A stretch of DNA of 39,121 nucleotides from a virus: positions 1-39,121 of IMG/VR virus record IMGVR_UViG_3300024265_000126; one strand, 5' to 3'. The notes under the pieces were generated by a model that made no database searches, was not told the origin of the DNA, and saw only the letters and a list, made by a program, of their open reading frames with translations. The number at the start of each line of letters is the position of its first letter. Position 1 is the first letter of the stretch. The position numbers and the translations under genes were made by a program. Positions 6,260 through 39,121 of this stretch are shown here, in pieces.

Positions 6260-7188
6260 CAACGCAATCAGAGATCGAGAGGAACGCGACAGAAGCCCCG
6301 ACCGGAGAGACCGCACTAGCGCGGATTGAGAATTTGCCGGTGCGGGTCGAGAGCGCGGAGGAGTACAAGATCGTGGTTCAGGCCGGGAGGGGATTCCGGG
6401 ATCTGGTTCGAGAAATCGATCAGTGGTTCGAGGGCACCAAGACAGAGCCCGGCCCGAAGGTCCAAGCGCATAGCCTCTGGAAATCTCTCTGCGATAAACA
6501 CAAGGCGGCCCGGAGTCTCCCGGAGCGCGGACTCAAGACGGCAAAGCTCTTACTCGACGGATTCGATAAGAAGGTCCGGCAAGAGAAGGCCGAGGCGGAG
6601 CGCAAGGCCCGCGAGGAGCGAGAGCGTATCGAGCGTGAGGCCCGCGAGGAATCCGAGCGGCTAGAGGCCAAGGCCACGGAGGAGCGCGAGGAGGCGGAAC
6701 GGCTCAAGACCGAAGCCCGCGAGCAGAAAGAAACGGCCGAGCGGCTCGCGGCGGAGCCACCTGGAGATCCGGAGGATGAGCGGAAGCGACAAGCAGAACT
6801 TGACGTTGCTGCGGAGGATGAGCGCGACCGACTGGCCGCGATCGCGGACGCAGAGAGAGCGGCCGAGGATCTTGATCGCGCCGCTGAGCGAGCGCTAGAG
6901 GCTCCCACGAGAACGCCGGCTTCATTCGCAGCCCCGGTCGAGGAAGCTCCGGCAGTCGAGGGCGCGAGCAAGAGTGAGGGTTGGGATTTCGAGATCATTG
7001 ACCCCACCAAGATCCGGGTCAAGGTGATTCGAGACGCAATGCGAGTCGTCGCGGCGGAGAAGATCAAGACCTCGTGGCTCGGTCAGCATCTCAAGAAGAT
7101 CGTTGGGGCTCACGGCGAGGCCGCCGGCTCGATCATCGGAGAGGGCTCGATCGAGGTCAAGACCAAGACGACTAGAAGCTTTCGGTGA
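6256..7188 (+). CDS. Coiled-coil phage protein of recombination cluster
   Basis: The protein has 310 residues. The start at 6256 is chosen for its ATGA overlap and AAGGAG site. Residues about 110-225 are an almost continuous Glu/Arg/Ala-rich coiled coil. The C-terminal 70 residues, from GWDFEIIDPTKI to a basic KTKTTRSFR end, resemble the conserved C-terminal domain of coiled-coil proteins that often accompany phage SSAP and nuclease genes. It may assist recombination or bind DNA ends. The precise role is unknown. Confidence 0.72.
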   Translation: MTTQSEIERNATEAPTGETALARIENLPVRVESAEEYKIVVQAGRGFRDLVREIDQWFEGTKTEPGPKVQAHSLWKSLCDKHKAARSLPERGLKTAKLLLDGFDKKVRQEKAEAERKAREERERIEREAREESERLEAKATEEREEAERLKTEAREQKETAERLAAEPPGDPEDERKRQAELDVAAEDERDRLAAIADAERAAEDLDRAAERALEAPTRTPASFAAPVEEAPAVEGASKSEGWDFEIIDPTKIRVKVIRDAMRVVAAEKIKTSWLGQHLKKIVGAHGEAAGSIIGEGSIEVKTKTTRSFR

Positions 7189-9713
7189 GTCAGAGATTCG
7201 ACCCAGAGAGCTATCAGAGGTTTCTGGAAGACAAGATGGTGTCCGCTCCGGTGTCAGGGCTCAAGGTCAGTCGGAGTGATCTTAGCTCGTGTCTCAAACC
7301 TCACCAAGCGGACTTGGCTCTCTGGATGCTGCTCGGAGGCAAGCGTGCCTGTTTTGCGGCTTTCGGATTGGGCAAGACGCTGATTCAACTAGAGGTCCTG
7401 AGAATCATCCGTGAGCGCATTGGCGGAGTCTGCATGGTGATCTGTCCGCTCGGGGTCAAGCAAGAATTTCAGCGCGACGGTGCCGACCTACTAGGGCTCA
7501 CGACGGAGTACGTCCGGAGTGATGCCGAGGTCGCGGCATCGGGTGCCGACGTCGTTCTGACGAACTATGAGCGCGTCAGAGATGGTGGAATCTCAGTCGG
7601 AGGGCTCACGGCCGTGTCACTCGATGAGGCGTCGGTACTTCGCGGCTACGGGACGAAGACGTTCCAAGAGTTCCTCCAGATCTTCCCGGACGTACCTTTC
7701 CGCTACGTTGCGACGGCGACTCCGAGCCCGAACCGCTTTAAAGAGTTGATCCACTACAGCGGATTCCTCGGCATCATGGATACCGGGGAAGCGCTCACGC
7801 GGTTTTTTCAGAGGGACAGTCAGAAGGCGAACAATCTCACCCTCTACCCTCACAAAGAACAGGAGTTCTGGGCGTGGCTATCTTCATGGGCTGCATTCGT
7901 CACGAAGCCGAGCGATCTGAGGCACGATGATGCTGGCTACGACTTGCCGCCGCTTGAGGTTCACTATCACGAGATCGACAGCGACCACTCGAAAGCAGGC
8001 TCAGACAACTTCGGCCAGTCGAGACTCTTTAGAGACGTGGCGTTTTCGCTCGCAGAAGCGGCCCGTGAAAAGCGGGACACTCTATCCGCTCGTGTGAGCA
8101 AGGCTATCAAGATCATAGGCGAGGCCCCTGACCGACACTTCATCATCTGGCACCACCTCGAAGATGAGCGCCGCGAGATCAAGCGGCAGTTGCCAGCAGC
8201 GTCTGAGGTCTACGGCTCTTTGGACCTGGAGATTCGGGAGGAGAGAATCATCGCATTCTCCGATGGTGAACTTCAATATCTAGCGACCAAGCCGCGCATC
8301 TCGGGGTCCGGTTGCAACTTTCAACGGCACTGCTCGGATGCGATCTTCGTCGGTATCGACTACAAGTTCAACGATTTCATCCAGGCGATCCACCGCCTCT
8401 GGAGATTCTTACAAGAGCAGACGGTCCATATTCACGTAATCCACACCGAGAGCGAACGGCCCATTCTTCGAGAGCTGCTCGCGAAGTGGGAGCGCCACAA
8501 GGAGCTAGTTTCCAATATGAGCGACCTCATCAGAATTCACCACCTAGCCGACGCGATCACAAGCGGCCTCAAGCGCTCGATCGGAGTCGAGCGGCTCGTC
8601 GCAACCGGCTCAGGATGGCAAGCGGTCCATTCTGATTCGATCCTCGAAACCGCCGAGATGCAAAACGAGAGCATCGACCTAATCGTGACCTCGATTCCGT
8701 TCGGCAACCATTATGAATACAGCCCGAGTTTCAATGATCTCGGGCATTCAACGGGCAACGACCAGTTCTTCGAGCAGATGGATTATCTGACGCCAGAACT
8801 GCTTCGGGTGCTCCGTCCCGGGCGGGTCGCCTGCGTACACGTCAAAGACCGGATCTTGTTCGGCAACGTGACGGGAGACGGCATGCCGACAGTCGACCCG
8901 TTCCACGCCCTGACGATCTTCCACTATCTGAAGCACGGCTTCCGGCTCGCGGGCATGATCACGATCGAAACTGACGTCGTGCGCGAGAACAACCAGACGT
9001 ACCGCCTCGGCTGGACAGAGAATTGTAAAGACTCGACGAAGATGGGAGTCGGGTGTCCCGAGTACCTGCTGCTTTTTCGGAAGCTACCGAGCGACACCAC
9101 GAAAGGCTACGCCGACGTTCCAGTCTCCAAGTCGAAGGATTCCTACACGCGCGGGCGCTGGCAGATCGACGCACGCGCAAAGTGGAACAGTTCCGGGGAA
9201 CGCCATCTGACGCCGACAGAGATCCGGGACACCTCATTGCAGAGGGTCAACGAACATTTCGCCGCGTACATGGCTGGCCACGTATACGATTACGATGAGC
9301 ATGTTAGCCAAGCCGATGCCCTCGACTCGGTGAACCACCTACCGGCGACGTTTCAAGCTCTGAATGTGCCGGCCAGGACCGCTCACGTCTGGCACGACAT
9401 CGTGCGTATGCGAACGCTCAACGCGGAGCAAACGCGAAAGCGCCAACAGAACCACATTTGTCCGCTTCAATTCGACATCATTGATCGCTGCATCCAGCGC
9501 TTCTCCAGTCCCGGCGAGCTGGTTTACGATCCGTTTGCGGGCATCATGTCGGTTCCGTATCGGGCGATTCTGATGGGTCGCAAGGCTATCGGAGTCGAGC
9601 TCGCCTACGATTATTGGCGCGATGGAGTCAAGTACTGCGAAGCAGCAGAGATCAAGGCGCAGACTCCGACGCTCTTTCAGATGTCGGTGACAGAAGAGGA
9701 GGCGACCGGATGA
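7185..9713 (+). CDS. DEAD/SNF2-like helicase fused to DNA methyltransferase
   Basis: The protein has 842 residues, with a GTG start overlapping the preceding stop. The N-terminal helicase half has Walker A FGLGKT near residue 65, a LDEAS box in place of DEAD, TATPSPNRF (motif III), and a C-terminal lobe with a QAIHRLWR motif VI. The second half is a beta-class amino-methyltransferase: catalytic motif IV TSIPFG near residue 503, and motif I DPFAGIMSVPYRA with the acidic GVEL near the C-terminus. SIPF replaces the usual PP[YF] form, which I recall as normal in this phage family. It should methylate adenine N6 or cytosine N4 while moving on DNA, perhaps for protection from host restriction. Confidence 0.88.
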   Translation: MSQRFDPESYQRFLEDKMVSAPVSGLKVSRSDLSSCLKPHQADLALWMLLGGKRACFAAFGLGKTLIQLEVLRIIRERIGGVCMVICPLGVKQEFQRDGADLLGLTTEYVRSDAEVAASGADVVLTNYERVRDGGISVGGLTAVSLDEASVLRGYGTKTFQEFLQIFPDVPFRYVATATPSPNRFKELIHYSGFLGIMDTGEALTRFFQRDSQKANNLTLYPHKEQEFWAWLSSWAAFVTKPSDLRHDDAGYDLPPLEVHYHEIDSDHSKAGSDNFGQSRLFRDVAFSLAEAAREKRDTLSARVSKAIKIIGEAPDRHFIIWHHLEDERREIKRQLPAASEVYGSLDLEIREERIIAFSDGELQYLATKPRISGSGCNFQRHCSDAIFVGIDYKFNDFIQAIHRLWRFLQEQTVHIHVIHTESERPILRELLAKWERHKELVSNMSDLIRIHHLADAITSGLKRSIGVERLVATGSGWQAVHSDSILETAEMQNESIDLIVTSIPFGNHYEYSPSFNDLGHSTGNDQFFEQMDYLTPELLRVLRPGRVACVHVKDRILFGNVTGDGMPTVDPFHALTIFHYLKHGFRLAGMITIETDVVRENNQTYRLGWTENCKDSTKMGVGCPEYLLLFRKLPSDTTKGYADVPVSKSKDSYTRGRWQIDARAKWNSSGERHLTPTEIRDTSLQRVNEHFAAYMAGHVYDYDEHVSQADALDSVNHLPATFQALNVPARTAHVWHDIVRMRTLNAEQTRKRQQNHICPLQFDIIDRCIQRFSSPGELVYDPFAGIMSVPYRAILMGRKAIGVELAYDYWRDGVKYCEAAEIKAQTPTLFQMSVTEEEATG

Positions 9714-11139: not shown

Positions 11140-11469
11140 ATGGCCTATAGCGATCTTCTAAGAGATCCGAGATGGCAACGTAAGCGCCTGGAGATTCTCC
11201 AGCGTGATGGTTTCGCGTGCCGGTGTTGCGGCTCCAAAACCGAAACACTTCACGTCCACCACGGCTACTACGCGAGGGGACGCAAGCCGTGGGAGTACAA
11301 CAACGAATCTCTCTGGACCGTTTGCGAAGAGTGCCACGGATTATCCCAAGACCTCTTGACCGATTTACGCCGGGTAGTCGGGCACTTAACTCCGGCTGAG
11401 CTATCTGATCTGACGCACGGACTAGTCCACAAAGTCGGGGACCGTATACGAGCGGAGCCGGGCCAGTGA
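11140..11469 (+). CDS. HNH endonuclease-domain protein
   Basis: The protein has 109 residues. The zinc knuckles are C27-x2-C30 and C62-x2-C65. Between them lie the HNH residues H40-H41 (LHVHHGYY), N54-N55 and H66 (CEECHG). The compact domain fills nearly the whole protein, so it could be a free-standing nicking or packaging-associated nuclease or a homing remnant. It is translated from the structured leader and overlaps the replication initiator by GTGA, which suggests co-expression with replication genes. Confidence 0.8.
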   Translation: MAYSDLLRDPRWQRKRLEILQRDGFACRCCGSKTETLHVHHGYYARGRKPWEYNNESLWTVCEECHGLSQDLLTDLRRVVGHLTPAELSDLTHGLVHKVGDRIRAEPGQ

Positions 11470-12221
11470 GCTTCACCGCCCTTGCCGCAGTAATCGACAA
11501 TGCGAACCAGGAGCGCCTCCGAGGGGCGAAGGTTTCAGAGCGCTGCATTCTGATGCTCCTGGCCTATCGCCACAACCACGAGACGGGGAAGTGCTGCCCT
11601 CATATCAAAACGATCTCCAAGGAGACCGGCCTTTCGCCCCGAGCCGTTCGGGCAAATCTCACACTGCTAGAGCAGCGCGGAGTCCTTACTCGGCGTCCGA
11701 TTCTGAGAGGTCAAAAGATGATCGGGCAGCAATATGACCTCAACGTCGACCCGCCAGAGAACAAGCCGAAGAGGGGGGCCGAATCTGCCAGGGTAGGGAG
11801 GCAGAATCCGCCAAACAGGGGGGCCGAATCTGCCAAAACAGGGGGGCCGAATCTGCCCCCAGAACAGAAAGAAGAAGAAAGGAAAAAGAGAAACTCAGGA
11901 GAGAGAGAGGCCGCGATCCAAGAATTCGAGTCTCAATTTTGGCCCGCATGGCCGAAGAAGGCAGCGAGGAAGGACGCGGCGAAGGCCTACGTGACCGGGA
12001 GGCTTAACGGGATGCCAGCCATCGAGGAACTACTGGCCTCGATCAAGAAGCACAGCGGCGGCAAGCAGTGGCTCGACGGGTTCATCCCTCACGCCGCAAC
12101 CTGGATCAGGGGCGAGAGGTGGGGTGACGAAGTAGACACGCCGAGGCCAACCGGCCGTCACGCGGCTCCGGCCTGGGTCGACCCGGCGAAGCGGAAGATA
12201 AAGACGAGGAGGACATCATGA
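11466..12221 (+). CDS. Replication initiator, lambda O-like, with internal origin
   Basis: The protein has 251 residues and a GTG start. The N-terminal domain (about 1-95) is a winged helix with a clear helix-turn-helix (IKTISKETGLSPRAVRANLTL). A flexible linker (about 97-145) contains GAESA repeats and a Lys/Glu run. The C-terminal domain (FWPAWPKKAARKDAAKAY to PHAATWIRGERWGDE) is the common phage initiator domain thought to contact the helicase or loader. The linker is low-complexity because its DNA carries four 17-bp iterons, as in lambda O. The helicase loader gene follows with an ATGA overlap. Confidence 0.85.
   Translation: MSFTALAAVIDNANQERLRGAKVSERCILMLLAYRHNHETGKCCPHIKTISKETGLSPRAVRANLTLLEQRGVLTRRPILRGQKMIGQQYDLNVDPPENKPKRGAESARVGRQNPPNRGAESAKTGGPNLPPEQKEEERKKRNSGEREAAIQEFESQFWPAWPKKAARKDAAKAYVTGRLNGMPAIEELLASIKKHSGGKQWLDGFIPHAATWIRGERWGDEVDTPRPTGRHAAPAWVDPAKRKIKTRRTS
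11773..11911 (+). repeat. Four iterons plus purine-rich tract: candidate replication origin
   Basis: Units of GGGGGGCCGAATCTGCC begin at 11773, 11818 and 11841, with a diverged copy GGGAGGCAGAATCCGCC at 11796. Spacings are 23, 22 and 23 bp, about two helical turns, so all copies face the same side of the DNA. Immediately downstream (11858-11911) is an almost pure A/G stretch, AT-richer than its surroundings, which could unwind. The arrangement inside the initiator gene matches the lambda ori plan. The repeats are seen; origin function is inferred. Confidence 0.82.
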
Positions 12222-12970
12222 GCGAGTGTCCTAAGTGCAACGGCCGAGGCTGGCTGGCTGTCACCGAGTCAGTCAACGTCATGAGCAACGATGAGGTCGG
12301 AACCGTGCAAAGCGCCCAGCCGTGCGACTGCCGCTACGAGTGGGAGTTCATTCTCCAGCGAGCCGGAGTCCCAGCGGAGCATCGAGCGGTCCCGGAGGAT
12401 CTACCGATTCCGGATCCCGACATCGAGAGCTGGAGCGGCGATCCCTGGTGCATGGTGTTCTTGCCGAGGGTCGAGGATGACGGCTCGGTGCCGAGACCGA
12501 ATGGGACGGGGAAGACCTGGATGGCGGTTCGAGTCCTCGGGCTCTGGATTCGAGAGGGACGCGGGCCGTTTCAATTCGATGGGCCGATACGAAGGGGCAA
12601 GCTGGTCGGCTTCGGCGCGCCGCGTTTCGCTCAAGTCGGCTGGGCTATTGAGAGCATGCGCCGGGACATCGGGACCGGCTCTACCGCCACGATGGACGCG
12701 CTCTGCAACGCTCGGCTATTGGTCCTCGACGATTGGGCCGCGATGCGGCAGACGGAGTACGGCCAAGAACGAATGAGGCTACTCGTAGAGCATCGATCGA
12801 CGAACTCGCTACCGACGATAGTTACCTGCGACCGGCCGCTCGAAGCGGTCGATTCTCAGGGTGAAGCGGCCGTGGAGATTCGGCTGGCGTCAAGGATGGG
12901 GAAGCGGTCGAGCGATGGGAAGTCCTACGCTTTCGAGATCGACCACGCAACAGATAGGAGGACGGGATAG
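12218..12970 (+). CDS. DnaC-like helicase loader, AAA+ ATPase
   Basis: The protein has 250 residues. A zinc-binding N-terminus (CPKCNGRGW and CDC) precedes an AAA+ core: Walker A NGTGKT (95-100), Walker B LLVLDD (167-172), a sensor-like TIVTCDRP, and an arginine-bearing ASRMGKRS segment. It should load the replicative helicase at the origin bound by the initiator encoded just upstream. The two genes form the familiar initiator-loader pair. Confidence 0.86.
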   Translation: MSECPKCNGRGWLAVTESVNVMSNDEVGTVQSAQPCDCRYEWEFILQRAGVPAEHRAVPEDLPIPDPDIESWSGDPWCMVFLPRVEDDGSVPRPNGTGKTWMAVRVLGLWIREGRGPFQFDGPIRRGKLVGFGAPRFAQVGWAIESMRRDIGTGSTATMDALCNARLLVLDDWAAMRQTEYGQERMRLLVEHRSTNSLPTIVTCDRPLEAVDSQGEAAVEIRLASRMGKRSSDGKSYAFEIDHATDRRTG

Positions 12971-27184: not shown

Positions 27185-30100
27185 ATGACTACGATCATCA
27201 CACCACAAGAGGACGCGCAGCTCGTAGCCGCCGAGGCTACGGCCGCAGGAATGGTCGGCAGTCTCCGCCAAGCATCGAACGATGTAACGGCACAGCTAGA
27301 ACGGATCGCGTTCGCTTCGAAGCACGGCTTCTCCTACGGCGGCGACAGAGACCTGAACACGGCGCTCGGCAGGACCGACCGGCTAACGATCGAGAACTAT
27401 CGTGCTCGCTACCGGCGAGGCGGGATCTTCAAGCGCATCATCAACGCAGCTCCGAAGGCAACGTGGGTCTCGGGTGCGACGATCGAGGAGGATCCGGACC
27501 CGGAGACGCAGACCAAGTTCGAGGCGGCCACCGAGACTTTATTCAAGAGGCTGAATATCTGGAGCCTGTTACTCCGCGCCGATATCCTCGCGGGCCTTGG
27601 CCGGTATTCGGCTCTACTGATCGGCGGCGAAGGTAAAGCGGAGGATCTCGAAGGCGAGATCAGCTTCGGCTCAGACGGACCGACCTTTCTGCGCGCCATC
27701 GCCGAAGACAGGGCAAAGATCCATGAGTTCGAAACAGACACGGAGAGCGAGCGCTTCGGCAAACCCAAGATCTATACGGTGACTCTGAACGCGGACTCTT
27801 CTGGCCGTCTGATCTCTAAGTCTAGGGAGGTGCGGATTCACTGGACACGGATCATCCACATTGTCGACGGCGCGCTCGAGAGTGATGTATTCGGGACACC
27901 TCGAGGGGAGGCTACCTGGGATCTATTCGACGATATCTATAAGGTAGTCGGCGGTGGGGCCGAGGCAGCGTGGAAGGGAATGGATCCCGGTCTGAGCTTT
28001 AATATCGACCCGACGCTTCCTGTCAGCCCGGCCGACGCGAAGAAATTCAAAGAGGAGATCCTAGAGTTTCAGCACGACCCGAGGAAGCGCTACCTCCTGT
28101 CGCGTGGCGTCGAGGTGGATCAGCTTACACCCTCGGTGATGAACTTCGGTTCTAACTCAAAATCGCTTCTGGAGCTGATCGCCGGCACGGAGGAGATCCC
28201 GCTTCGGATTCTCCTTGGAACCGAAAGGGGGGAGCTGGCTTCGTCCCAGGACGAGCGAAACTGGAATAAGAGGATTGAGGAGCGCTGGGCGCTATTCGCT
28301 GAGCCGGTCGTCCGGGATCTGGTCGACCGTTTCATCCAGTTCAAGGCGCTGCCGGCAGTAGCGGAATACCGCGTCAACCGTCCCGTAGCGGCCGAACTCG
28401 ACGCCGAGGAGACGGCATCTCTCGCGGGCAAGATCGCCTCAGCTAACAAGGCACAACGCGACGCAGGCGATACGCTTATCTTGACCTCCGAGGAGATGCG
28501 CAGAAAGCTCTACGACATGGAGCCGTTGGAAGTCTCGGGCGGAGATCCGGAGTCGACCCAGCTTCGAGGAGCGGCCGAACCCGAGGGCGAACACCGAGCA
28601 GTCCGTCAGGCGGCGCTCGCGGCCGAGCCCGCGCACGAAGCTCTCTGGCGCGGTCTGTGGTCCGAGCTGGAGGACGCGCTGCCGTCAGATACCATGCTGG
28701 AATCCGCGATCGGGGCGCTCGACGCCGAAGCGATCACAGTACAGGTCGAACTTGAGGAGTCGACGGGGGAGGTTTCAGATGCTCCGGAAGATCTTCTGGC
28801 CGGGCCGCTCGATCTGATCGACGCCGCGCTCGCGGAAACGATCGAGGACTTCGAGGAGCCTCTCCAGGCTCTACTTTCGAAGACATTGACGGACGGAGCT
28901 GAGCGGTCGCTAGAGGTCATCGACACGCGGGGCTCATATCTCCTGAACGGAGATCCTCAGTTTGCGCCGGCGAAGCGTGGGTTGCTGGGAAGGTTCAGGC
29001 GGCGGGGTGCTCAGTTTGATGCCATCAATCCGAGCGCGGTCAGTTGGGCCACGAACACGGCCGCCAAAAGAATCACGGAGATCGCGGCCGGCTCAAGAGA
29101 GACCGTCCGCACGGTGATAGCTCAGTCGCTCGCGACCGAGGTCTCGATACCGAGAGCGGCGGCGCTGATTCGAGAGACGATTGGACTCAGAGCAGACCAA
29201 GCTCGGGCCATTGTGAGGCTCGGTGTAGATCTAAGGGCCGCGAGTCCCGGCTCGACCGTTCTCAAGGGCGGGCTCAAGTTCAAGGTTCCGCAGTCCGGAG
29301 CGTCGAATAGCTTCGTCAAAAGGTCACAGGCTCGCTATACGAAGAGGGCTCTCCGGGTCCGGGCCGAATTGATCCGTCAGACCGAGACGGCGAACGCCGC
29401 GAACGCTGGCCTTCGGGAGACCTGGAGGCAGGGCCGGGAAGCGGGCGCTCTGCCGTTGAACGTCAAGCGGGTTTGGATTGACTCTGGAGACGACCGGGTG
29501 CGACCAAGCCACGCGGAAGTCAATGGCGAGGAAGTCGGGATCGACGAGGACTTCTCAATCGGAGTAGAGCCCGGAGAGGAGCCGCGCTGCTTCCTGCCCG
29601 GGACTCTCGTATCAGGTCGATTCGTCGCAGGGCTAAAGGCCGACTATTCTGGTCCTGCCAGGGAGATCGAAACGGCTAGCGGGCACAGGTTGCGCCTGAC
29701 CGTCAATCACCCCGTACTCACCACACGCGGCTGGATTGCCGCTTTTGAGATTGAGACCGGAGATCAAGTGCTCGGATACGCGGGCGAGGTCGTGCGGCCG
29801 ACTGGCCCTGGAAAGCCACACGATGACGATCCGCCAGCCCTCATTGAAGATGTATTCGAGACGCTTGCGCTGGGTGGAACACGAGCCGTTGATCTTCATC
29901 CCCATTACCTCCACGGCGATGCGCGCTGGGTTGAAGGCCAGATCAATATTGTAGGGACCGATCGGGTATTGACGGGAGAAGTTGAACCCGCGAGAGGAGA
30001 GACGGGCAGTGAGCTCCGCCTCTCCCTCTCCGATTCGAGCCGGGATCATCTTCTGGTGGGCAGTCTTGGCGCTGGCGATCTTACGACTCATAGGAGTCCT

Positions 30101-30442
30101 GCTCCCTCTGCTGGCGGCCCAAGCCGCTCCGCACTGGCGCTTGATAGCGGCGGGGTCCTTCTTCAGACCCAGCCACTTCACGCTCTCAGCCTCGGACCGG
30201 CCGCGCACTGGAACACCGTTAAGCCGGAAGCGGCGGGACAAAGCGTCACGGCTGATACCCAATTCCTTCGAGAGTTGGTTGACAGAAGCGCCGGAATGAT
30301 AGCGCTGGATGAGGTCGTTAAGATTTTTGATTTCGATTTCCGGGGCCATGTTTACGATCTCCAGTCTGTTACGGGTTGGATTTTAGCTAACGGCATTATA
30401 TCAAGTAACTGCCGTTGCGGTCAGGGATTGGTGGCGGCATGA
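27185..30442 (+). CDS. Portal fused to Mu gpF-like minor head protein, interrupted by an intein
   Basis: The precursor has 1085 residues. Residues about 1-450 are a portal of the DUF1073-like type (NYRARYRRGGIFKRIINAAP, EVRIHWTRIIHIVDG, LLGTERGELASSQDERNW). Residues about 480-801 form a helical linker and the gpF-like domain, with LIRQTETANAANAGLRETWR, WIDSGDDRVRPSHAEVNGE and PGEEPR. The gpF end motif PxxPR-CRCG is split: an intein of 274 residues (802-1075) begins at C802 and ends SN-C1076. After splicing the mature protein would have 811 residues. Portal and gpF are usually separate genes. The portal forms the DNA entry ring; gpF-like proteins sit at the head interior or connector. Confidence 0.88.
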   Translation: MTTIITPQEDAQLVAAEATAAGMVGSLRQASNDVTAQLERIAFASKHGFSYGGDRDLNTALGRTDRLTIENYRARYRRGGIFKRIINAAPKATWVSGATIEEDPDPETQTKFEAATETLFKRLNIWSLLLRADILAGLGRYSALLIGGEGKAEDLEGEISFGSDGPTFLRAIAEDRAKIHEFETDTESERFGKPKIYTVTLNADSSGRLISKSREVRIHWTRIIHIVDGALESDVFGTPRGEATWDLFDDIYKVVGGGAEAAWKGMDPGLSFNIDPTLPVSPADAKKFKEEILEFQHDPRKRYLLSRGVEVDQLTPSVMNFGSNSKSLLELIAGTEEIPLRILLGTERGELASSQDERNWNKRIEERWALFAEPVVRDLVDRFIQFKALPAVAEYRVNRPVAAELDAEETASLAGKIASANKAQRDAGDTLILTSEEMRRKLYDMEPLEVSGGDPESTQLRGAAEPEGEHRAVRQAALAAEPAHEALWRGLWSELEDALPSDTMLESAIGALDAEAITVQVELEESTGEVSDAPEDLLAGPLDLIDAALAETIEDFEEPLQALLSKTLTDGAERSLEVIDTRGSYLLNGDPQFAPAKRGLLGRFRRRGAQFDAINPSAVSWATNTAAKRITEIAAGSRETVRTVIAQSLATEVSIPRAAALIRETIGLRADQARAIVRLGVDLRAASPGSTVLKGGLKFKVPQSGASNSFVKRSQARYTKRALRVRAELIRQTETANAANAGLRETWRQGREAGALPLNVKRVWIDSGDDRVRPSHAEVNGEEVGIDEDFSIGVEPGEEPRCFLPGTLVSGRFVAGLKADYSGPAREIETASGHRLRLTVNHPVLTTRGWIAAFEIETGDQVLGYAGEVVRPTGPGKPHDDDPPALIEDVFETLALGGTRAVDLHPHYLHGDARWVEGQINIVGTDRVLTGEVEPARGETGSELRLSLSDSSRDHLLVGSLGAGDLTTHRSPAPSAGGPSRSALALDSGGVLLQTQPLHALSLGPAAHWNTVKPEAAGQSVTADTQFLRELVDRSAGMIALDEVVKIFDFDFRGHVYDLQSVTGWILANGIISSNCRCGQGLVAA
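29588..30409 (+). mobile_element. Intein in the gpF-like domain
   Basis: Residue 1 is Cys (CFLPGTLV, block A). GHRLRLTVNHPVLT is block B with the TxxH core. FDFRGHVYDLQSVTGWILAN is block F, and GIISSN followed by Cys is block G. The usual penultimate His is Ser here (SN|C), a variant known in some inteins. It sits exactly before the conserved CRC end motif of gpF, a typical conserved-site insertion. The region between blocks B and F has no LAGLIDADG or HNH domain in this frame; instead the opposite strand carries a nuclease gene. Splicing has not been shown. Confidence 0.85.
29633..30349 (-). CDS. Vsr/EDxHD-like homing endonuclease, antisense inside the intein
   Basis: The protein has 238 residues. 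The ATG is at 30349 with GGAG about 9 bases upstream. Residues 8-60 contain a helix-turn-helix (SVNQLSKELGISRDALSRRF) followed by GVPVRGRSEAES, a pattern of mobile nuclease DNA-binding domains. Residues 105-180 are a Vsr-like nuclease fold: RIGEGEAEL (E110), the strand pair with GPYNIDLAF (D136) and RIAVEV (E147), then RKRLEYIFNEGWRIVIVWL. The His-rich stretch expected between VEV and the Arg helix is replaced by GMKINGSCSTQ, so catalytic His may be lost. Its codons are registered exactly opposite the intein's codons. It should cut intein-free alleles to drive homing. Confidence 0.72.
   Translation of the reverse strand: MAPEIEIKNLNDLIQRYHSGASVNQLSKELGISRDALSRRFRLNGVPVRGRSEAESVKWLGLKKDPAAIKRQCGAAWAASRGSRTPMSRKIASAKTAHQKMIPARIGEGEAELTARLSSRGFNFSRQYPIGPYNIDLAFNPARIAVEVMGMKINGSCSTQRKRLEYIFNEGWRIVIVWLSRASRPHDLARVSEHLISGLNLKSGNPAACGEYGVIDGQAQPVPASRFDLPGRTRIVGL
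30395..30424 (-). promoter_or_regulatory. Candidate promoter for the antisense endonuclease
   Basis: On the minus strand CTGACC (30424-30419) and a perfect TATAAT (30400-30395) are separated by 18 bases, ending 46 bases before the endonuclease ATG. The -10 box overlaps the sense codons for the two Ile of the intein's NGIISSN block, using ATT ATA, an AT-rich choice in a GC-rich gene. The -35 lies in the C-extein and stop-codon region. The boxes are seen; promoter activity is inferred. Confidence 0.5.
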
Positions 30443-37145: not shown

Positions 37146-39121
37146 TTGCGCCGCTCGTTCTTCACTGTTGCCGTAGTTATGGCGCTGTTTCTAGCGGCGG
37201 CTGGCGGCAGTCCCCTTGCAGCTGCGTCTGAGAGGGTCGCACTAACCAAGGTCGACGTGGTCGATCTGCCCCCTACGTGTGAGCCGGGGCAGCCGTTTAT
37301 CGTCAAGGACGGCAACAGTGCGTCTGACTGCGTAACCGGCACGGGCTCAACGAAGGTGCTCTGTACGTGCGACGACTCGGGGAGTAGCTATAGCGCAACC
37401 GGAGACGGAAACTCGGGCGGAACGCCGACGCAGATCGTGGCGGGTGATTCGGATATGACCGTGACGGACGCGGGGGTCGGGGACATCACCGCAACCGTAG
37501 ACGGCGTAACTGCGATGGTGCTAAACGGGGTCGGATCGGGGGTCAACTACGTCGACATTACTCCTAGCATCACTGCTGTCGGCCCGACGATCGCTGCTGA
37601 GGGGGAGACGAATGTCGACCTCAACCTGTCGGGCAAAGGGACCGGGCAGGCTCATCTGGGAGGCTGTATCGATGACGATCTCGACGGGACCTGCGAGACC
37701 TTCGTCGCGAGCAACATCTTCAATATCGACCCGGACGATGACGGTGACCAGCAGATGACGTTGACCGGATCTGGGAACCTAAGGGTCCTGGCGTCAGCCG
37801 CGAACACCTTGATCTTCACCGGTAACAGCAACGAGTCGCCAGGACTGTTTCAGCGAGCGGCTCAAAGTGCGACGCTCCCGGTCATCGTCACCTATGCTGG
37901 CCACGGGCCTACAACCGGATTCGGCGGGCAGGGCTCTGGCGGTGATGCCGGTTACGTCTCAACCATCATAAATTCTATCGAGAGCCTGCGCGTAGCCGGT
38001 GTCGCTTCGGGTGTGAATCGAGTCCAGATCACGCCAGGGGCAACCGGCACCGGATCGACCATCGCTAGCGCTGGCGAGGCGACGGTTCCGCTTGTGTTCA
38101 CCACAGCGGGGACCGCAAATTTCGACTTCTCCGACGACAACATCAACGCGAGCGGCGGGATCGACCTGCCCGCAGATGCGGTCGATGCACTCACAGAAAT
38201 AGCGCAGTCGATCAAGACGGCTGCGAACGACACCGATCCTCTCGCGGTTTATACGGGAGGCAATCCCGGCTCGAATGTCTGCGTCGAGATGACCTCGACT
38301 GGGACTCTGATTGCCGCAGCCGATACCTGCGCGAATCTTGGACCGGGCGGCGCGACGGCGATCAACGATCTCGGAGATGCCGGTGGAGTCGGAGTGGTCC
38401 AAGTCGGAACAGACCAGGAGTGGGGGCAGACCTGGACCTGGAATACTCCGGTCACGACCGTTGCCGCTCTGGATGGGCTCAAGCTAATCATGGACCTGGA
38501 CGCGACCACGGACGTTCAGACGCAGAGCATTCTCGCCCTCGAACGATCAGACGGTGCGGGGACCACGGCGCTTGAGGCGATACTGAAGATCAACAACGCC
38601 GAGGTTACGGCAGCGGTGATAAGCGGAATCGAGATCCGCTCGGCAGCGGGTGGGATGACGTCGGCAATCGACGCCAACGACGCACAGATCACCAACATCA
38701 TCGAACATGCGGGTGGCTCAGTCACGAGCAGCGACCTCGACATCATCGACGATGGCACGGTGGACGGAGGTACGGGTGGAGATATCGGAGACGGTACTAT
38801 CGACGGCGAGGATATAAACGCCAACTACGCCGGGGCATACCTCACCGAGACTGCGGCCAGCCCGGATACGCTCGGCGTAGACGATGAAGTGGTACGGCGC
38901 ACCTTCACCTTCATAGTGGAAGCTCCGACTACGGCGGAGGACGGCGACATTCAGCACATGCTCGATGTGGGCTGTACGATTGACCGGGTGCAGTGCTCAG
39001 TGGCTGCCGCGACGAGCGTCACGATCAACATCAACGAGCGGGCAATAGGAACTCCGAACTCGACCGGAGACGACGCGCTCTCCTCGGGATTGGTTTGCGA
39101 CGTAGGATCGCAGTCATCGTG
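37146..39121 (+). CDS. Fibre-like secreted protein, truncated by right edge
   Basis: The frame is open for 658 codons from a TTG at 37146 to the edge; an ATG at 37179 would cut into the signal peptide. The N-terminus (MRRSFFTVAVVMALFLAAAG) is a signal peptide. It is followed by LPPTCEPGQPFIVKDGN...CVTG...VLCTCDDSG, the same Cys module as the previous protein. The rest is a long Asp/Thr/Gly-rich beta region (MTVTDAGVGDITATVDG, LNLSGKGTGQAHLGG, DDGTVDGGTGGDIGDGTIDG), as in fibres or beta-helix stalks. The function is probably adhesion; the C-terminus is outside the window. Confidence 0.78.
   Translation, partial: MRRSFFTVAVVMALFLAAAGGSPLAAASERVALTKVDVVDLPPTCEPGQPFIVKDGNSASDCVTGTGSTKVLCTCDDSGSSYSATGDGNSGGTPTQIVAGDSDMTVTDAGVGDITATVDGVTAMVLNGVGSGVNYVDITPSITAVGPTIAAEGETNVDLNLSGKGTGQAHLGGCIDDDLDGTCETFVASNIFNIDPDDDGDQQMTLTGSGNLRVLASAANTLIFTGNSNESPGLFQRAAQSATLPVIVTYAGHGPTTGFGGQGSGGDAGYVSTIINSIESLRVAGVASGVNRVQITPGATGTGSTIASAGEATVPLVFTTAGTANFDFSDDNINASGGIDLPADAVDALTEIAQSIKTAANDTDPLAVYTGGNPGSNVCVEMTSTGTLIAAADTCANLGPGGATAINDLGDAGGVGVVQVGTDQEWGQTWTWNTPVTTVAALDGLKLIMDLDATTDVQTQSILALERSDGAGTTALEAILKINNAEVTAAVISGIEIRSAAGGMTSAIDANDAQITNIIEHAGGSVTSSDLDIIDDGTVDGGTGGDIGDGTIDGEDINANYAGAYLTETAASPDTLGVDDEVVRRTFTFIVEAPTTAEDGDIQHMLDVGCTIDRVQCSVAAATSVTININERAIGTPNSTGDDALSSGLVCDVGSQSS

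Follow-up and report, generated by a model that had tools for sequence, protein, structure and literature searches.

The window, by which we mean the whole 39,121-nucleotide stretch analysed (IMG/VR virus record IMGVR_UViG_3300024265_000126), carries a replication initiator gene at 11466-12221 on the plus strand. The gene has a GTG start and encodes a 251-residue protein, P0001, which matched the phrog_270 "replication initiation protein" profile over most of its length (residues 19-233, E 1.6e-27) and HTH_36 at residues 24-72 (E 9.8e-9; 35.3 bits, cut-off 25). A winged helix (residues ~20-95) is followed by a disordered linker (~96-131) and by a C-terminal helical domain ending in HAATWIRGERWGDE. 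The stop codon of the initiator overlaps, within an ATGA, the start of a second plus-strand gene at 12218-12970. Its product matched phrog_50 (E 2.9e-11, residues 96-248) and phrog_3277 (E 6.7e-5), confirming that a helicase loader gene follows the initiator, as had been proposed from the sequence alone, and that the loader is DnaC-like. An HNH endonuclease gene lies directly upstream of the initiator (11140-11469; phrog_119, E 6.2e-13).

An AlphaFold2 model of the initiator, built with 26 relatives, placed the winged helix at a pLDDT of 92-97 over residues 21-90, with helices at 23-34, 47-54, and 58-70 and a wing at 74-92. The pLDDT was below 50 at linker residues 103-127, encoded by nucleotides 11772-11846, and the C-terminal part was helical. 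The best structural matches of the winged helix included the plasmid initiator entries 4pql, 4pt7, 5kbj, and 4pta (Z 9.1-10.4), which we take to be staphylococcal RepA structures; the values for 4pt7 and 4pql (Z 10.2-10.4) were within 1 of those for unrelated winged helices. Foldseek likewise returned only ordinary winged helices, all with E above 1e-3, and no family claim here rests on them. Searching solved structures with the initiator sequence yielded marginal matches to capsid proteins only, which we rejected; lambda O had no match in the same set.

Four 17-bp direct repeats (iterons) lie inside the initiator gene, all on the plus strand: iteron 1 at 11773-11789 (GGGGGGCCGAATCTGCC), iteron 2 at 11796-11812 (GGGAGGCAGAATCCGCC), iteron 3 at 11818-11834 (GGGGGGCCGAATCTGCC), and iteron 4 at 11841-11857 (GGGGGGCCGAATCTGCC). 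Direct reading gave start-to-start distances of 23, 22, and 23 bp, in agreement with the 22-23 bp spacing of the original prediction. The copies also fall where that prediction had put them, in the linker between the DNA-binding and C-terminal domains, the iteron-coded residues being those predicted to be disordered. The array is the top tandem repeat of the 39-kb contig (scores 112 and 123; the runner-up scored 61), and no second iteron cluster was found in the window. Elsewhere in the 39 kb, there was no site within two mismatches of the iteron motif, except copy 4 read on the reverse strand. Each copy has a 13-bp core, GGCCGAATCTGCC or GGCAGAATCCGCC, that forms an imperfect dyad, self-complementary at 10 of 13 positions, a level attained by 0.6% of the 13-mers in the window; the perfect form, GGCAGA-A-TCTGCC, was seen in relatives.

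Iterons 1 and 3 share one reading frame and iterons 2 and 4 another, and the encoded peptides are GAESA, RQNPP, GAESA, and GPNLP, respectively. The array scored 51, above the maxima of 33.5 for 60 synonymous-codon shuffles and 36 for 60 codon-order shuffles. Since the frames alternate and the score exceeds that of every shuffle of either kind, the feature that has been kept is the DNA. A disordered linker would leave its codons free to hold DNA sites, so that iterons are possible in any frame.

Neither blastn in phages nor searches of viral and genome contigs with peptide patterns found close relatives of the window. A strict search for two copies of GGGGGC..AAT.TGCC had no match, and the single-copy matches to this pattern (L011-L013) were set aside as chance. 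Iterated DNA is present at the same place, each time with its own sequence, in the annotated relatives EBPR podovirus 2, Pam5, Parlo, Pavtok, SfII, and a Sulfitobacter plasmid. Scans supplied further initiator loci, 80 from IMG/VR and 65 from bacterial genomes, and the comparison set comprised 56 dereplicated loci, window included. In the course of this survey, we also noted that the initiator frame of Pseudanabaena phage Pam5 (L005:1908-2744), with 22-bp iterons GAGGGGTCAGAATGTGACCCCC, is unannotated in its record.

At least three linker iterons were present in 48 of the 56 loci, and the iteron sequence was lineage-specific. The spacing check proposed in the original prediction gave a consistent answer: among 89 iteron spacings of 18-26 bp, 30 were 22 bp and 36 were 23 bp (66/89 together). 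Spacings that are multiples of three were mildly depleted (20/89, p 0.03), and the iteron copies used more than one reading frame in 40 of the 48 loci. The original prediction had named, as evidence against it, relatives that keep the linker protein while the DNA repeats decay. We observed the opposite, with the iterated DNA kept in place while the linker peptide and the iteron sequence change. These family-wide regularities were not found described in the open papers searched, which cover part of the literature.

The same data bear on a rival explanation, in which selection keeps a repetitive linker protein and the DNA repeats follow from it as a by-product. The repeats do lie in a coding linker, and in-frame arrays occur in a few lineages (the SfII type, LV-2017, and the L039/L055/L105 group). 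However, two frames alternate in the window, most of the family mixes frames, arrays exceed their synonymous shuffles, and the linker is predicted to be disordered. A repeat at the protein level was rejected on the basis of the frames and the shuffles, and we regard the by-product explanation as extremely unlikely.

Immediately past the array lies a purine-rich, A-rich tract on the plus strand (11860-11914), a candidate DNA-unwinding element. The near-pure purine run noted earlier after the iterons is real: at 28 nt (11866-11893), it is the longest on either strand of the contig, and the most purine-rich 56 bp of the window are at 11861-11916. By nearest-neighbour energy, no 50-bp stretch of the contig is less stable than the one starting at 11860 (-61.3 kcal/mol, against a mean of -75.0 and an sd of 3.9). 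The tract is thus the stability minimum of the contig in addition to being purine-biased, which makes it a natural unwinding element. This arrangement recurs among relatives; the 50 bp past the last iteron ranked within the least stable 5% of the locus in 38 of 39 cases, compared with 15% for randomly placed controls.

We also observed a recurrent tetramer, AACC, in the unwinding tracts of the 39 loci, window included (75 bp past the last iteron). There were 85 copies, against a mean of 41 and a maximum of 54 in synonymous shuffles, and only 3 copies of GGTT on the same strand; the density was 29 per kb in the tract and 3.6 per kb elsewhere. The copies are mostly 11-15 bp apart, fall in all three frames, and accompany unrelated hosts and unrelated iterons (for example, L005, L018, L080, and L166). 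In these relatives, the repeats have the appearance of an unwinding ladder that is conserved and strand-specific, and they can be compared with the 13-mers of the DNA-unwinding element that TrfA binds as single-stranded DNA (PMC4081077). The window's own tract lacks the AACC ladder and has its purine run where most relatives have AACC.

If the winged helix reads the repeats, similar recognition helices should go with similar iterons even where the rest of the domain differs. In a partial Mantel test on 36 loci that controlled for the remainder of the domain, iteron similarity tracked helix similarity (r 0.247, p 0.0005); the remainder, given the helix, did not track the iterons (p 0.12). The helix signal persisted when the set was dereplicated to 23 loci (r 0.183, p 0.0055) and when the loci fetched by motif were removed (r 0.173, p 0.002), all these p-values being approximate, as the relatives are phylogenetically non-independent. 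A sliding seven-residue window peaked, in the dereplicated set, at SPRAVRA, the N-terminal part of the recognition helix (P0001 residues 57-63; codons 11634-11654, plus strand), where similarity tracks iteron similarity between loci. In the full set, columns at the end of the domain rose too, probably because in some loci the first iteron extends into those codons.

The converse search started from DNA only. Scanning for a doubled core GGCAGAATCTGCC returned nine contigs, in eight of which (4/5 when distinct) the core lay inside a wHTH initiator gene. The helices of these initiators read ERAIR, IRAVR, or PRSVR, compared with PRAVR in the window and KRAVQ in L018-L023. A complementary pair is L022 and L080, whose C-terminal parts are 87% alike and whose winged helices are 49% alike, with wholly different iterons. 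Exceptions with other iterons were L110 (QRAVQ), L090 (DRAVR), and L147 (ERAIR); these break a simple one-to-one code between helix and iteron, so the rule is partial. Overall, the comparison supports the initiator as the predicted binder of the iterons, via its recognition helix.

We considered whether the repeats might instead serve as operators, bound by a different phage or host protein such as a repressor. Repressors, too, typically have 13-bp dyad sites, but similarity among the iterons tracks the recognition helix of the initiator itself, unrelated genomes keep the repeats at this place in the initiator linker, and searching with DNA only lands on initiator genes. Together, these observations make a different binder very unlikely.

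The layout of the locus closely parallels that of lambda O/ori, as originally predicted: a winged helix, a linker with four dyad iterons, an unstable tract, a C-terminal domain, and a loader gene. The lambda iterons, at 39034, 39054, 39078, and 39101 (spacing 20, 24, and 23 bp), are 19-bp imperfect inverted repeats bound by O, with an AT-rich region adjoining, and two of them plus this region are enough for unwinding (PMC7466680). In lambda, and in the origins of Stx phages, the initiator likewise has two domains joined by a linker that holds four dyad iterons ~22 bp apart, read in more than one frame, and an A-rich, purine-rich unstable tract follows directly, then a helicase-loader gene. The lambda tract contains the purine-rich AAAAGAAAAAAGAAAAGA, and within the 6-kb locus tested, the least stable window of lambda ranks in the lowest 0.4%. 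Run as a positive control through the same measurements, lambda gave the same picture as the window.

The components themselves differ. Lambda O matched Phage_rep_O (PF04492, E 5.7e-36), whereas P0001 had no match to it at E 0.1, and the wHTH profile built in this analysis did not find lambda O. The loader of the window is DnaC-like (phrog_50) and that of lambda is P-like (phrog_109); the C-terminal domains also differ. Both initiators match some broader PHROGs (391, 678, and 345), and a distant kinship between them is possible. The iterons are unrelated, ATCCCTCAAAACGAGGGA in lambda and GGGGGGCCGAATCTGCC in the window. The claim of an unrelated repeat sequence therefore holds against lambda, but not more widely, as the core GGCAGAATCTGCC is common to other, distantly related phage initiators with like helices. 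P0001 is instead a member of the phrog_270-type initiators, which combine an HTH_36 winged helix with a C-terminal FDxFW...HPATWLNGERW domain; its relatives of this type share the 22-23 bp linker iterons and the unstable tract after them, with iterons that differ by lineage.

A similar arrangement is known in the pSK41-type RepA_N proteins of Gram-positive plasmids. There, the N-terminal domain binds four Rep boxes in the middle of the rep gene, the ori-encoded middle is a dispensable linker, and a domain for interaction with primase (DnaG) takes the place of an adjoining DnaC-like loader (PMC5703833). The window shares the four sites in mid-gene and, putatively, the linker-encoded origin; P0001 had no Pfam match to the RepA_N domain at E 0.1. 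The putative origin of the window resembles those of lambda and the pSK41-type RepA_N plasmids in how it would work, and it belongs to neither family.

From these features of the sequence, we conclude that the replication origin of this phage is very probably the linker region of its own initiator gene. In the mechanism that we propose, the N-terminal winged helix, probably as dimers, would bind the four imperfect-dyad iterons via its recognition helix, as the comparison across loci suggests. The ~22.7 bp spacing would then build a compact nucleoprotein complex resembling the O-some of lambda. Strain and supercoiling would open the adjoining purine-rich tract, whose position is observed. The C-terminal domain and the DnaC-like loader would place the host DnaB helicase on the opened strand, by analogy with lambda O/P and from the gene order. 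GC skew, which had been suggested as a check, was positive from 9 kb to 32 kb without a switch at 11.8 kb; it is uninformative as an origin marker here, because transcription direction probably dominates it.

Binding by the initiator could also serve mainly self-regulation, through autorepression or iteron pairing for copy control, with the strand opening elsewhere. The repeats are intragenic, covariation of helix and iteron is expected from binding alone, and iteron plasmids are known to use iteron pairing for control (PMC5703833). However, the 50-bp stability minimum of the contig abuts the array, post-iteron DNA is among the least stable in nearly all loci measured, the window has no other iteron cluster, and the same placement is an origin in lambda and pSK41. 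We consider a mainly regulatory role to be quite unlikely next to an origin in the linker.

Two other genes of the contig drew our attention. The frame at 7185-9713, which may serve in DNA modification or defence, encodes an 842-residue protein whose N-terminal part is helicase-like (weak Helicase_C match) and is joined to an N6/N4 DNA methylase domain. The portal/MuF fusion gene at 27185-30442 holds an intein (29588-30409, plus strand; residues 802-1075), and a 238-residue frame (29633-30349, minus strand) lies antisense and wholly within the intein coding DNA, with matches to an HTH and to the DUF559/MTES_1575 nuclease. Homologues of this frame occurred in 122 phage records, 116 of them over at least 80% of its length, with a best identity of about 33%. 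We inspected one of them, from Pseudomonas phage vB_Pae_BR313c; it likewise has no annotation and runs antisense to a MuF gene, which itself gave a weak intein-splicing match. This suggests that an antisense homing nuclease within inteins is a recurrent arrangement.

A more general reading seems to us evenly balanced between right and wrong: that the window belongs to a very widespread class of initiators, distinct from that of lambda, in which the winged helix and the iterons form a portable specificity cassette. The helix would largely set the iteron sequence, and the iterons would turn over in concert within a fixed, frame-alternating 22/23-bp geometry; a separate strand-opening tract would be kept independently of the iteron sequence. 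If true, phage origins would have a partial recognition code that could be read without anything beyond the sequence. For the phage itself, the analysis provides a well-supported origin in an uncultivated genome without an annotated close relative, and it turns a resemblance to lambda into a tested prediction, with the recognition helix covarying with the repeats across lineages. The lambda layout also occurs with proteins whose binding domain shows no detectable sequence similarity to lambda O, and many metagenomic phage origins could be located via the disordered linker of their initiator.
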